From Polynucleobacter parvulilacunae (lineage in GTDB: Bacteria > Pseudomonadota > Gammaproteobacteria > Burkholderiales > Burkholderiaceae): a stretch of DNA of 64,000 nt. Below the pieces are notes generated by a model, which ran no database searches, was not told where the DNA came from, and saw nothing but the letters and a program-made list of their open reading frames with translations. Positions 2,613 through 15,371 of the stretch are shown here, in pieces. A program made the position numbers and the translations under genes. The stretch lies in contig NZ_JACVPW010000002.1 of NCBI RefSeq assembly GCF_018881715.1, positions 310,001 to 374,000 on the forward strand, written 5' to 3'. The first letter of the stretch is position 1. Every line of letters begins with the position of its first letter.

Positions 2613-3809
2613 TTATTTAAGGAACTCTTGGGCTGCGACTACGCCACTGGCCTTAGGTTTGTAACCCATAGAACCCAGGCTCATCTCCACCCCACTGAGG
2701 GCGGCCATCAAGCTCAGCTCATTGCAGTCACCCAAATGGCCGATACGGAATGCCTTGCCTTTGATCTTGCCCAAACCAGTTCCTAAAGAGAGATTGAATT
2801 TCTCCAAAGCATGTTTACGCAATACATCCGCATCCATACCTTCAGGAGTAGCAATGCAAGTGAGGACTGGTGAATAGCAATCTTGATCCTGACATTGAAT
2901 TTCTAGACCCCAAGCATTCACTGCTTCACGACAAGCCGCAGCTAAACGTTGATGACGAGCAAAAATGGTGTCTAAGCCTTCAGCCATCATCATGTCCATC
3001 GCTTCATGCAAACCGTACATGAGATTTGTACTTGGAGTAGTTGGCCAGTAACCATTTTTATTCGACTCAAGAATCTCATCCCAAGCCCAATATGACTTAT
3101 GTATTTTGTTATTTTGACTGACTTCAATTGCGCGTGGAGATAAAGCATTAAAGCCAATGCCGGGTGGCAACATCAAGCCTTTTTGCGAGCCAGAGATGGT
3201 AACGTCAGCACCCCACTTGTCATGCTCATAATCGGCTGAACCCAAGCCAGATACGCTGTCTACGAGCAATAAGGCTGGATGCTTTAAGGAATCAATCGCT
3301 TTGCGAACCGCTGCAATATTTGATGTCACGCCGGTCGAAGTTTCGTTGTGTACAACGCAAACTGCTTTGATCTCATGACCAGTGTCTTTACGTAAATGCT
3401 CTTCAATCACAGATGCATCGACACCCCAACGCCAAGAATCTTGCCCTGCTTTACCAACTACTTCTACATCTAAACCAAGACGCTTACCAAGTGCACGCCA
3501 TAAGTTTGCAAATTGACCAGTTTCATAGAACAACACTTTATCGCCCGGATTAAGAACATTCACTAATGCGCCTTCCCAGGCACCCGTTCCTGAAGCGGAA
3601 TAAATAATGACAGGCTGCTCAGTTTTGAAAATCTTTTTAATGCCGTCCAATACCTTGAGGCCAAACGCACCAAATTCAGGACCGCGATGGTCGATGGTTT
3701 GATAGCTAATGGCACGCAATACGCGCGGAGGAACAGGACTTGGGCCAGGAATATGTAAAAAATGGCGTCCTGATGCGTGGTTATCAAGTTTCAACATGCT
3801 GTGTCTCAC
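2613..3809 (-). CDS. Pyridoxal-phosphate aminotransferase, serine-glyoxylate/alanine-glyoxylate type
   Basis: HIPGPSPVPPRVLRA, HNETSTGV, SGSQKGLMLPPG (PLP lysine). Confidence 0.9.
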   Translation of the reverse strand: MRHSMLKLDNHASGRHFLHIPGPSPVPPRVLRAISYQTIDHRGPEFGAFGLKVLDGIKKIFKTEQPVIIYSASGTGAWEGALVNVLNPGDKVLFYETGQFANLWRALGKRLGLDVEVVGKAGQDSWRWGVDASVIEEHLRKDTGHEIKAVCVVHNETSTGVTSNIAAVRKAIDSLKHPALLLVDSVSGLGSADYEHDKWGADVTISGSQKGLMLPPGIGFNALSPRAIEVSQNNKIHKSYWAWDEILESNKNGYWPTTPSTNLMYGLHEAMDMMMAEGLDTIFARHQRLAAACREAVNAWGLEIQCQDQDCYSPVLTCIATPEGMDADVLRKHALEKFNLSLGTGLGKIKGKAFRIGHLGDCNELSLMAALSGVEMSLGSMGYKPKASGVVAAQEFLK

Positions 3810-12145: not shown

Positions 12146-12221
12146 GGGTCGGTAGCTCAGTCGGTAGAGCAGCGGACTTTTAATCCGTTGGTCGCGAGTT
12201 CGAATCTCGCCCGACCCACCA
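12146..12221 (+). tRNA. tRNA-Lys (anticodon TTT), CCA encoded
   Basis: gggtcggtagctcagtcggtagagcagcggacttttaatccgttggtcgcgagttcgaatctcgcccgacccacca; folds as cloverleaf; tataat 15 bp upstream. Confidence 0.97.
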
Positions 12222-12222
12222 G
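12185..12222 (+). repeat. 38-bp direct repeat copy 1 (tRNA-Lys 3' end; attL-like)
   Basis: ccgttggtcgcgagttcgaatctcgcccgacccaccag, identical to 13270..13307. Confidence 0.95.
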
Positions 12223-12228
12223 CATTAC

Positions 12229-12255
12229 TAAGCCTCGCTTCTGCGGGGCTTTTTT
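12229..12255 (+). terminator. Rho-independent terminator after tRNA-Lys
   Basis: agcctcgcttctgcggggcttttttat hairpin plus T run. Confidence 0.75.
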
Positions 12256-12353
12256 ATCACTTACATCAACCCCCCCCCGAATAGCTCTTTAAAGGGTATT
12301 TTAGGGCCATTTTTTGGCTAGGGAATCCAACCCAAATCCAATAAAATAGTGGA

Positions 12354-12551
12354 ATGCCAGCAAAGCTCGTAACAACACATCAGCTTCGCCAATACATCGT
12401 TTGCAACGCCATTGCCTCTGCTCGAATTGAAGGCATCGCCCTAGCAACGCAGTTTGAACAAAAACTTACTGACTATATAAATGGCAAAAAAAGTATCGCC
12501 CAATTAATAGAAGAAACTAAGCAAAGTTATATTAAGAGCACAATCAAATGA
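12354..12551 (+). CDS. Small antitoxin-like protein with VbhA/Fic-antitoxin-like SxxxEG helix
   Basis: 65 aa; NAIASARIEGIALATQFEQKLTDYINGKKSIAQLIEETKQSYIK; ATGA overlap with next gene. Confidence 0.65.
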   Translation: MPAKLVTTHQLRQYIVCNAIASARIEGIALATQFEQKLTDYINGKKSIAQLIEETKQSYIKSTIK

Positions 12552-13066
12552 CCGTCAATTTAAATAAAAAAATTATCATTATTGCCGGACCCAATGGAGC
12601 CGGTAAAACTACCTTTGCCAAGAACTTCTTGCCACAAGAAGCGCATACTTTTCGCTTTGTTAATGCTGATCTCATAGCCGCTGGTTTAGCACCATTTAAC
12701 CCAGAGTCTGTTTCATTCAAAGCAGCTCGATTGATGCTAAACGAATTAGATGAGTACACCAAATCAGGCGAAAGCTTTGCCTTTGAAACTACTCTATCTG
12801 GCACACATTATCTGCAACGTATTCAGGAGTGGAAAGATCTGGGGTACGCCATCAAACTCTGGTTTATTGCACTAAGTTCCTCTGAGTTAGCTATTTCGCG
12901 TGTAAAAGAGAGAGTGGCACAGGGAGGGCACAACATCCCTGAAGAGGTCATTCGTAGGCGATATACCGCCGGCCTCGAGAATTTGCCCAAATATCAAAAA
13001 GTTGTAAAATCATGGATATTGTTAGATGGAGATAAAACTCCGCCCGAACAAACAGACCAAGGTTGA
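12548..13066 (+). CDS. Zeta-toxin-like P-loop kinase (AAA family)
   Basis: IIIIAGPNGAGKTTFAKNF (Walker A), RFVNADLIAAGL, FAFETTLSG, IRRRY. Confidence 0.82.
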   Translation: MTVNLNKKIIIIAGPNGAGKTTFAKNFLPQEAHTFRFVNADLIAAGLAPFNPESVSFKAARLMLNELDEYTKSGESFAFETTLSGTHYLQRIQEWKDLGYAIKLWFIALSSSELAISRVKERVAQGGHNIPEEVIRRRYTAGLENLPKYQKVVKSWILLDGDKTPPEQTDQG

Positions 13067-13266
13067 CTATGACTATTCCAAGCAAAGATATACGTAATTC
13101 ATCAGATCCTGATATTGCTGGATCTTACTACGCCATGCAACGTGCTGGACAAGCCGCAATAGACTTGGCAATTCAAACCAATACCGCAATCGTAACTACC
13201 GTTGACGGCAAGATTGTTCGGATCCCTGCTGCAGAACTCATCAAACAGCGTCAAGTTACAGCCTAA
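13063..13266 (+). CDS. Small protein of unknown function, third gene of zeta-like operon
   Basis: 67 aa; start overlaps zeta-like stop; ends 3 bp before the 38-bp repeat. Confidence 0.7.
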   Translation: MTMTIPSKDIRNSSDPDIAGSYYAMQRAGQAAIDLAIQTNTAIVTTVDGKIVRIPAAELIKQRQVTA

Positions 13267-13269
13267 ACA

Positions 13270-13307
13270 CCGTTGGTCGCGAGTTCGAATCTCGCCCGAC
13301 CCACCAG
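13270..13307 (+). repeat. 38-bp direct repeat copy 2 (duplicated tRNA-Lys 3' end; attR-like)
   Basis: Perfect 38/38 match to 12185..12222, without the rest of a tRNA. Confidence 0.95.
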
Positions 13308-13399
13308 TTATACAAAGGGATCACAGCAATGTGGTCTCTTTTCTTTTAGCTGTTTGGAATGTGTCGGTAACTTATAGCGGCAATAAGCAATCAAAGAAA

Positions 13400-13427
13400 A
13401 ACCACCCGAAGGTGGTTCTAATGTTTT
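13400..13427. terminator. Terminator-like hairpin
   Basis: aaccacccgaaggtggtt followed by T-rich ctaatgtttttt. Confidence 0.5.
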
Positions 13428-13508
13428 TTGACTGCCTAGGGTGTTATCGACCAGCGCCTGAGATTCTTTGCTGATATTAATTTAGCTTGCGGCTTTAAAC
13501 TTCAAAGA

Positions 13509-13769
13509 TCAATATCGTCTTTTCGGCGCACCAGCAAAAGATTGCTTCTTCTCAATATGTCTAAATGTGATACGGCCTTTACTCAAGTCGTAAGTAGAGA
13601 GCTCTAAAGAAACCTTATCTCCAGCCAAAATGCGGATGTGATTTTTTTTGACTCTTCCTGCTGTATAGGCAATAAGCTTATGGCCATTGTCTAAGGTAAC
13701 CCGATAACGAGAATCCGGCAGCACTTCATCAACAAGACCTTCCATTTCAAGCAATTCTTCTTTTGCCAT
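13509..13769 (-). CDS. infA: Translation initiation factor IF-1-like (probable second infA paralog)
   Basis: [60 protein letters not shown]. Confidence 0.9.
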
Positions 13770-13789
13770 TTAACATCCTTAATAAAAAT

Positions 13790-13815
13790 AAAAAAGCCCA
13801 GTCATGCTGGGCTTT
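13790..13815 (-). terminator. Terminator of csp gene
   Basis: aaagcccagcatgactgggctttttt on minus strand. Confidence 0.75.
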
Positions 13816-13855
13816 GAACCAGGCAAATAATTTCCGCCTGGCATTTGCTTCCGAA

Positions 13856-14059
13856 TTAAACAGGTTGAATATTGGATGCTAACTTGCCTTTAGGGCCAGT
13901 AGTAATATCAAAAGTCACCTTTTGACCTTCAGCCAAAGACTTAAATCCGCTGCTATTGATTGCTGAAAAATGGGCAAATAAATCTTCGCCGCCGAGTTCA
14001 GGGGTAATAAAGCCGAAGCCTTTAGCGTCGTTAAACCACTTCACAGTTCCATTTGCCAT
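13856..14059 (-). CDS. Cold-shock protein (CspA family)
   Basis: [34 protein letters not shown] (RNP1/RNP2). Confidence 0.95.
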
Positions 14060-14300
14060 ATCTGACTATTCCTTAAAAAAATATAAAAAAGGGCTATGCC
14101 CCAAATAGGGCGAAAGTCAAGAATGGCGAGGGAGATGCTAAGAAGAACTATCGCAGAACTGCGGTATTAATTACTAGTACAACAACACTATTAGCTTGAA
14201 AATCGCTAAATGTATTTTACTCTACTTTGGTCAATAAAGATTATTTATCAACAATTCACCTTTAAAACAGCCATAGGCACAGGTTAAAGCGCTTTGACGA

Positions 14301-14341
14301 TCCGTTATTAGGGATTTTGAATCTCGCGCGACCCACTAGCA
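14301..14341 (+). repeat. Degenerate third copy of tRNA-Lys 3' end
   Basis: tccgttattagggattttgaatctcgcgcgacccactagca; 33/41 identities to 12184..12224 by hand alignment, no gaps. Confidence 0.7.
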
Positions 14342-14417: not shown

Positions 14418-15371
14418 ATGAAGCTATTCAATAAGGTCTCCAGCCTTTTAAAGATCTCCTTTATGCGAGGTGTTTATTTAACTTTTGCCACCCTATTGGC
14501 TTCTCTTAGTGTGCACATTCCAGCGCAAGCACAAGAAAAGCCTGAAGTTAAGTATGCCTCGGTGAATGGCGTGAACTTAGCCTACTACCTAAAAGGTAAA
14601 GGCGACCCCATGATTATGATCATGGGTTATGCCGGTACCTTGAGTGCATGGGACCCCGCCCTACTTGATGAGCTAGCAATAAATAATCAACTGATCATTT
14701 TTGATAATCGTGGTGCCGGACTATCTACTGACACCAAAGCAAATAACACCACCATTCCACAAATGGCAGATGATGCCGCGGGCCTTGTTAAAGCGCTGGG
14801 CTTTAACAAGGTAAATGTATTCTCATGGTCAATGGGTGCTCGGATTGGACAACAACTAGTTATCAGACACCCAGAGCTAATCAACAAAGCAATTCTGTGC
14901 GCCCCCAATCCCGGTGGCAAATATCAGATTGCCATCAATAAAAAAGTTGGCGAGGAATTGAATAACCCAAGCCTTTCTCCGATGGAGAATTTCGAGTTGC
15001 TGTTCCCAATGACACCTGAAGGTAAAGCAGCTGCCAAGCTGGTGTATGAACGCTGGGTAGCAGCAAAAGCTGCAGGGACTATCCCTGATGACTTTATAGT
15101 ATCAAAGGAAACAAAAGCGCGCCAAGTTCGTGCTCGCATCACCTTATGGGATGCGGACAATCAAAATTACAAGGATCTAAAGAATATTAAAGTTCCCGTT
15201 CTAGTTGCGGATGGTCGTGAAGACATCATTGATAACCCCAAAAACTCAGTAGTTATTGCCAACCAAATACCTTTTGCTTGGTTAGCTTTTTATGAGGGTG
15301 GGCATGCATTCTTATTCCAAAGCTATAAGAAACTTTCAGAAACCGTAAACGTATTTCTGCAAAAGGACTAA
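14418..15371 (+). CDS. Alpha/beta hydrolase with signal peptide
   Basis: FDNRGAGLSTD, FSWSMGARIG nucleophile elbow, terminal GGHAFLFQ. Confidence 0.88.
   Translation: MKLFNKVSSLLKISFMRGVYLTFATLLASLSVHIPAQAQEKPEVKYASVNGVNLAYYLKGKGDPMIMIMGYAGTLSAWDPALLDELAINNQLIIFDNRGAGLSTDTKANNTTIPQMADDAAGLVKALGFNKVNVFSWSMGARIGQQLVIRHPELINKAILCAPNPGGKYQIAINKKVGEELNNPSLSPMENFELLFPMTPEGKAAAKLVYERWVAAKAAGTIPDDFIVSKETKARQVRARITLWDADNQNYKDLKNIKVPVLVADGREDIIDNPKNSVVIANQIPFAWLAFYEGGHAFLFQSYKKLSETVNVFLQKD

Follow-up and report, generated by a model that had tools for sequence, protein, structure and literature searches.

In Ca. Methylopumilus, fGI-2 at tRNA-Lys(ctt) is an additive island with repeated tRNA ends, sizes of 330 bp to 42 kb and content that varies between strains (PMC10872708); fGI1 of Alteromonas is an additive flexible island with tRNA-targeted cassettes (PMC4119200). 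CIMEs keep attL and attR without recombination genes, stand in tandem with other elements and are associated with accretion (PMC5704250). Tycheposons are tRNA-targeted, cargo-carrying elements of aquatic bacteria, 4–200 kb in size and equipped with a tyrosine recombinase (PMC10872708), and integron gene cassettes are short gene units in tandem with toxin-antitoxin (TA) systems among their cargo (PMC4119200). Integrated islands are detected by Islander, for which an integrase and a size of at least 2 kb are required (PMC4383910). The locus described here lies in a stretch of 64,000 nucleotides from Polynucleobacter parvulilacunae (GCF_018881715.1, contig NZ_JACVPW010000002.1, positions 310,001–374,000; the window), in which a 1,085-bp islet with three TA-type genes and no integrase follows tRNA-Lys(TTT) and is probably a cassette of an additive array.

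The islet at tRNA-Lys and its contents

The features of the locus are collected in Table 1. tRNA-Lys(TTT) is the sole tRNA called by ARAGORN in the window, and its 3' part recurs downstream with 38/38 identity at a spacing of 1,085 bp, so that an intact tRNA gene is accompanied by a displaced 3' fragment in the same orientation; no tRNA was called by ARAGORN at the second copy. The chance expectation for the 28-bp core with up to three mismatches was 0.00 matches, and a search of the whole genome with a 24-mer (up to two mismatches) returned no copies besides the two at 12185 and 13270. A third, decayed copy was located by alignment; it matches the repeat at 30/38 positions, compared with 25/38 for the best of 20 shuffled queries, and closes a second unit, so that the window holds two adjacent cassettes.

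Table 1. Coordinates of the features at the tRNA-Lys locus (positions in the window)
Feature	Position	Strand	Basis
tRNA-Lys(TTT), intact gene; left attachment-site copy formed by its 3' part	12146..12221	+	ARAGORN
Left repeat, attL-like; begins right after the anticodon loop and runs to CCA plus G	12185..12222	+	exact 38-bp repeat; 37-nt block common to array copies of the genus
Intrinsic-terminator-like hairpin, left end of cassette	12230..12251	+	hairpin analysis; left ends of other units
VbhA-like antitoxin, 65 aa, S/TxxxEG motif kept (SARIEG)	12354..12551	+	Pfam PF18495, E=1.4e-7; family also in Fic cassettes
Zeta-toxin family protein, 172 aa, Walker A GPNGAGKTT	12548..13066	+	PF06414, E=2e-11
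ORF3, 65–67 aa (TTG 13063 or ATG 13069), last gene before the repeat	13063..13266	+	follows zeta in other taxa too
Right repeat, attR-like, without other tRNA part	13270..13307	+	exact 38-bp repeat; ARAGORN
Second array unit: terminator, infA (13509-13769, -), cspA-like gene (13856-14059, -)	13308..14301		Pfam; recurrence beside repeat copies
Decayed third repeat copy, 8/38 mismatches	14302..14339	+	alignment

Between the two perfect copies lie the genes for a VbhA-like protein, a zeta-toxin family protein and ORF3. VbhA is known as a Fic antitoxin, and SARIEG (S/TxxxEG), the motif linked to Fic inhibition, is kept although the VbhA-type antitoxin adjoins a zeta toxin. Membership of the second protein in the zeta-toxin family was indicated by 44.2 bits against a gathering score of 22.3 and by the presence of the P-loop; in a PDB search the zeta matches were at P-loop level only and VbhA had none. 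No Pfam family matched ORF3, the stop codon of which lies 3 bp before the repeat at 13270. The order zeta then ORF3 was also found in Oxalobacteraceae, Myxococcota, Nitrospirae and Ferrovum records, and because ORF3 follows zeta in the latter three the two are an old gene pair to which VbhA looks like an addition; ORF3 is the likely antitoxin partner. The VbhA family precedes Fic elsewhere and zeta here, which suggests exchange of the toxin core between cassettes. An intergenic run of C residues in the islet (12270-12278) is possibly length-variable or sensitive to assembly.

No recombinase is encoded between the two repeat copies, and none of the eight PF00589 matches found when the genome was searched for tyrosine recombinases lies near the islet. 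The anatomy described by the sequence-only reading was thus recovered: the perfect 38-bp flanking repeat, a second copy without any other tRNA part, a three-gene TA-like operon that ends 3 bp before this copy (VbhA, zeta and ORF3 by Pfam and open reading frames) and an islet without integrase. Its interpretation of the repeats as an attL/attR footprint also holds, the unit being bounded by repeats and relatives having empty sites. Nor does the islet stand alone; the zeta cassette is one unit of an array.

Unit families in the arrays of Polynucleobacter

Repeat copies were counted with the 24-nt tRNA end (up to two mismatches) in 108 Polynucleobacter genomes; the genomes compared are species representatives, one per species. 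Two or more copies were present in at least 71 of the 108 genomes, with a maximum of 11, and a single copy in 37. Most copies in the complete genomes follow tRNA-Lys and share one orientation, and a few lie elsewhere. The copies of the arrays have CCGTTGGTCGCGAGTTCGAATCTCGCCCGACCCACCA in common; the flank after the repeat differs and is usually the terminator hairpin of the next unit, a similar terminator being brought by most units at their left end. A zeta homologue is absent from 122 of 151 genomes, and none was found after the tRNA (E≤1e-20) in the downstream regions of 20 single-copy genomes, one of these contigs being short; a VbhA homologue follows the tRNA in the single-copy genome G023. 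Relatives therefore differ in the presence of the islet, and the proposed search for empty sites succeeded where a single repeat copy or no zeta homologue was found, so that the case named as refuting integration, the same 1.1 kb in all relatives, does not apply.

Units were obtained by cutting the arrays at the repeats. The family with VbhA, zeta and ORF3 is complete between two copies (1,074–1,085 bp) in seven genomes, alignable over its full length and mostly with different neighbours. Further families consist of VbhA and Fic (980–983 bp, four genomes), of AbiEii and an HTH gene (1,440–1,473 bp, four genomes), of infA and cspA (1,032–1,069 bp), and of genes for a 109-aa protein, a 96-aa protein and ORF3 (1,005–1,020 bp); others measure 1.9–3.5 kb. 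In the 1.0-kb cassettes neither the 109-aa nor the 96-aa protein could be assigned convincingly to a family, so that calling these cassettes a TA system would be a guess.

The infA (IF-1) and cspA-like genes of the second unit in the window are additional copies. The same unit stands beside a repeat copy in G076, G070, G004 and G098, preceded there by units other than the zeta cassette, and its first 55–60 bp are found directly 3' of tRNA-Lys in G043, G020 and G039. About two dozen Polynucleobacter genomes hold segments closely resembling it (85–94%), which in some cases adjoin a repeat copy directly and in others lack one. Beyond the decayed repeat lies an alpha/beta-hydrolase gene (14418-15371), which is also carried in the arrays of G057 and of G076, where it comes next after the infA/cspA unit; the flexible region therefore extends past the two cassettes.

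For comparison of whole units, 65 integrase-free units of 0.5–3.6 kb were paired between genomes, a pair being defined by alignment of at least 90% including both repeats, and 300 bp of outer flank were compared on each side. Homology from end to end was found in 59 between-genome pairs, in 46 of which neither flank was homologous; the 59 pairs are non-independent, since families contribute several each. Zeta cassettes are highly identical to one another from one repeat to the next, and beyond the repeats this identity collapses. A 2.0-kb unit shared by G008 and G098 is 92% identical compared with 77% for the core beside the tRNA, and a 3.27-kb unit of G060 and G131 is 99.7% identical compared with 87% for the core, with the left break inside the repeat and the right flank also in common. 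Unit identities in excess of core identity suggest movement between species. The VbhA (97%) and zeta (93%) genes of the window are likewise closer to those of G011 than the core (79%), and the reverse was found with G013 (zeta 76%, core 87%). Between core and zeta identity to the window genome the rank correlation was positive but weak (rho 0.43, p 0.09), so that vertical inheritance may account for part of the distribution. Broken copies of zeta were seen at the tRNA-Lys locus (L055 and L062), in G148 with stops and a split and in G012 with stops, and intact copies elsewhere; cassettes also decay in place.

Integrases, other tRNAs and the origin of the islet

In 15 genomes a PF00589 protein was encoded in 5 of 11 units above 20 kb versus 0 of 35 units below 18 kb; because the small units are short in total, the latter value is an absence of integrase only and no statistical depletion. 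The integrases that use the tRNA-Lys site are several, distantly related and of at least three kinds (G075; G130/L227; L226). Those of G130 and of L227, a viral contig with an intact tRNA-Lys, are 64% identical. In the phage contig L226 (IMGVR_UViG_3300048670_000306; L226:6388-7504), a 32-bp tRNA-Lys end lies 15 bp beyond the end of the integrase gene, and no tRNA gene accompanies it; from this arrangement the tRNA-Lys end is likely the attP of a Polynucleobacter-type phage. The integrase of G075 (340 aa) adjoins tRNA-Lys; it was dismissed as a general driver, as full-length relatives (about 53% identity) occur in only five other sampled genomes. The non-Xer recombinases of the window genome itself resemble the tRNA-Lys integrases of other genomes and contigs only weakly, and the window's copy of the cassette may therefore now be immobile. 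No zeta homologue was found in viral contigs, and those on plasmids were below 60% identity only.

A search for the islet at other tRNA loci, as had been proposed, found a related one. In a P. meluiroseus MAG (G118, L045/L069), zeta and ORF3 without VbhA are enclosed by tRNA-Arg(TCT) on one side and a perfect duplicate of its 3' end on the other, with a period of 809 bp and a repeat of 28 nt plus 26 nt leftward and 1 rightward (L045:1359-2250; a third, diverged copy is located at 3461). A second zeta gene of G019 directly follows tRNA-Gly(TCC), and no repeat was found there. Downstream of tRNA-Gly (L063), tRNA-Glu (L089) and tRNA-Pro (L098; a doubtful 70-nt call) no 3'-end repeat was found, so these three records give adjacency only. 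In the Oxalobacteraceae records L077 and L109, zeta and ORF3 stand directly 3' of tRNA-Phe, with several tRNA-Phe-end-like copies downstream (3–7 mismatches in 28 nt, compared with 7–8 for the best of 100 shuffled queries, the weakest copies being near the shuffled range); the two records appear to hold an array at another tRNA in another bacterial family.

The islet is thus read, with good though not full confidence, as an integrase-less, CIME-like cassette, the first in an additive tRNA-Lys array, on which phage or large-island integrases would act, in trans or by accretion. A tyrosine integrase of a co-resident or incoming phage or island would recombine two tRNA-end copies, and the unit would be excised as a circle, or jointly with a neighbouring element by accretion, and re-inserted at any tRNA-Lys end. 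The predicted circle junction reads …CAGCCTAAACA-CCGTTGG…CCACCA-GCATTACTAAGCC…, that is, the end of ORF3, the repeat and GCATTACTAAGCC. Integration would leave the tRNA intact, and a new downstream terminator would be provided by the cassette. Loss would be penalized by the TA operon (toxicity being predicted), which may account for the persistence of so small a unit, and toxin cores and end modules would be swapped among cassettes by recombination. The boundaries at the repeats, the recurrence of units from att to att beside different neighbours, the absence of a recombinase and the tRNA-Lys integrases of islands and phages are the observations from which this course of events is drawn.

The sequence-only reading had left the choice between a cassette mobilized in trans and a deletion remnant, and of these the cassette, with mobilization in trans as its presumed mode of movement, is favoured over the remnant, because the complete unit recurs with changed neighbours and a related islet is present at tRNA-Arg. 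A remnant would be a CIME formed by decay, a larger island having lost its integrase and everything else and the TA genes having survived because their loss is toxic. CIMEs are thought to originate by decay of ICEs or IMEs (PMC5704250), and in several genomes longer units (L035, L040-L042) do have VbhA, zeta and ORF3 as their rightmost genes, preceded by others, as expected from the right end of an island. Independent decay would not, however, repeat boundaries 1.08 kb apart, and the short unit has the same left end in seven genomes beside different neighbours; boundaries are also constant in the Fic, AbiEii, 1.0-kb and infA/cspA families, and decay is accordingly considered unlikely. Exchange by RecA, in which linear DNA from transformation or transduction would recombine through the region flanking the tRNA, the repeats and the cassette ends with no site-specific step, is no more probable than decay. 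Recombination of att ends or cassettes by RecA could yield similar patterns, and cassettes are indeed mosaic: a left end of 327 bp (95.7% identity) is common to the zeta cassette of G026 and the Fic cassette of G134, and a right end of 230 bp (94%) to the zeta cassette of the window and the 1.0-kb cassette of G037. Rare events of this type could be seeded by the 37-bp repeat, but 37 bp is short for efficient homologous recombination, both breakpoints lie at the repeat in 46/59 pairs, and the first entry at tRNA-Lys and the separate tRNA-Arg, tRNA-Gly and tRNA-Phe sites are left unexplained.

Had the tRNA been duplicated in tandem on the spot and its second copy then lost the 5' part by decay, the case named beforehand as a possible refutation, a second site with just a 3' tRNA part would also result. 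No 5' tRNA remnant precedes the repeat, however, and in arrays the repeat is flanked by unrelated sequence. The repeat follows ORF3 at 205–206 nt after the zeta stop in 13 genomes, also in arrays remote from the tRNA, and starts at the same base even tens of kb away from it; because this distance is constant, the second repeat is no decayed remnant of a tandem tRNA. Together with the recurrence of units with changed flanks, this led to rejection of a duplication, which is regarded as highly improbable. A cassette recombined by phage or island integrases is therefore retained as the preferred reading, and pieces of about 1 kb without a mobility gene appear to spread through the genus as discrete units with tRNA ends as docking sites. 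Such spread would account for some of the gene differences between strains of streamlined freshwater bacteria and would explain how TA genes come to settle at island borders. It is proposed, tentatively and at somewhat less than even chances, that tRNA 3' ends are the shared site of an integron-like system without an integrase of its own, in which cassettes of about 1–3.5 kb, many of them TA, would be taken up, released and reshuffled in trans by any tRNA-specific integrase of a phage or island that is present, at several tRNAs and in more than one bacterial family.

Comparison with described systems

Polynucleobacter islands are reportedly treated by Hoetzinger et al. in 2017, who may describe the tRNA-Lys locus. 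Two Islander filters exclude the islet, because it has no integrase (no PF00589 match) and, at 1,085 bp, is below 2 kb; such cassettes would have gone unseen because finders of this kind demand both, and Islander-type detection has a blind spot for integrase-free or shorter candidates. Packaging or hijacking genes of a phage satellite are not among its three TA-type genes. VbhA-VbhT (Fic) and zeta TA systems resemble the islet in that ORF1 matches VbhA and ORF2 the zeta-toxin family; here, however, the zeta toxin is preceded by a VbhA-type antitoxin and followed by ORF3, another small partner.

With integron cassette arrays the tandem arrangement is shared, but the repeated site here is a tRNA 3' end rather than attC, and neither an adjacent integron integrase (intI) nor any other integrase was seen in the array of the window. 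Tycheposons are likewise tRNA-bounded, carry cargo and have aquatic hosts; the islet differs in its 1.1 kb and in having no recombinase. As in CIMEs, attL and attR are kept and genes for integration and transfer are absent. By definition CIMEs result from decay of ICEs or IMEs, with which they move in cis, whereas the 1-kb unit is a recurrent family; its module is also found at the right end of longer units, and no ICE or IME parent came to light. CIME describes the anatomy of the islet and, so far, not its origin. As in the additive flexible islands of Methylopumilus and Alteromonas, tandem units at one conserved tRNA, present in some genomes and absent from others, were found here, between species representatives, as were recurring tRNA-end repeats and variable size and content. 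Those papers treat whole islands, whereas the Polynucleobacter arrays are resolved into families of integrase-free units that end exactly at att copies and recur beside other neighbours; many carry TA genes, and phage integrases occur at the same site.
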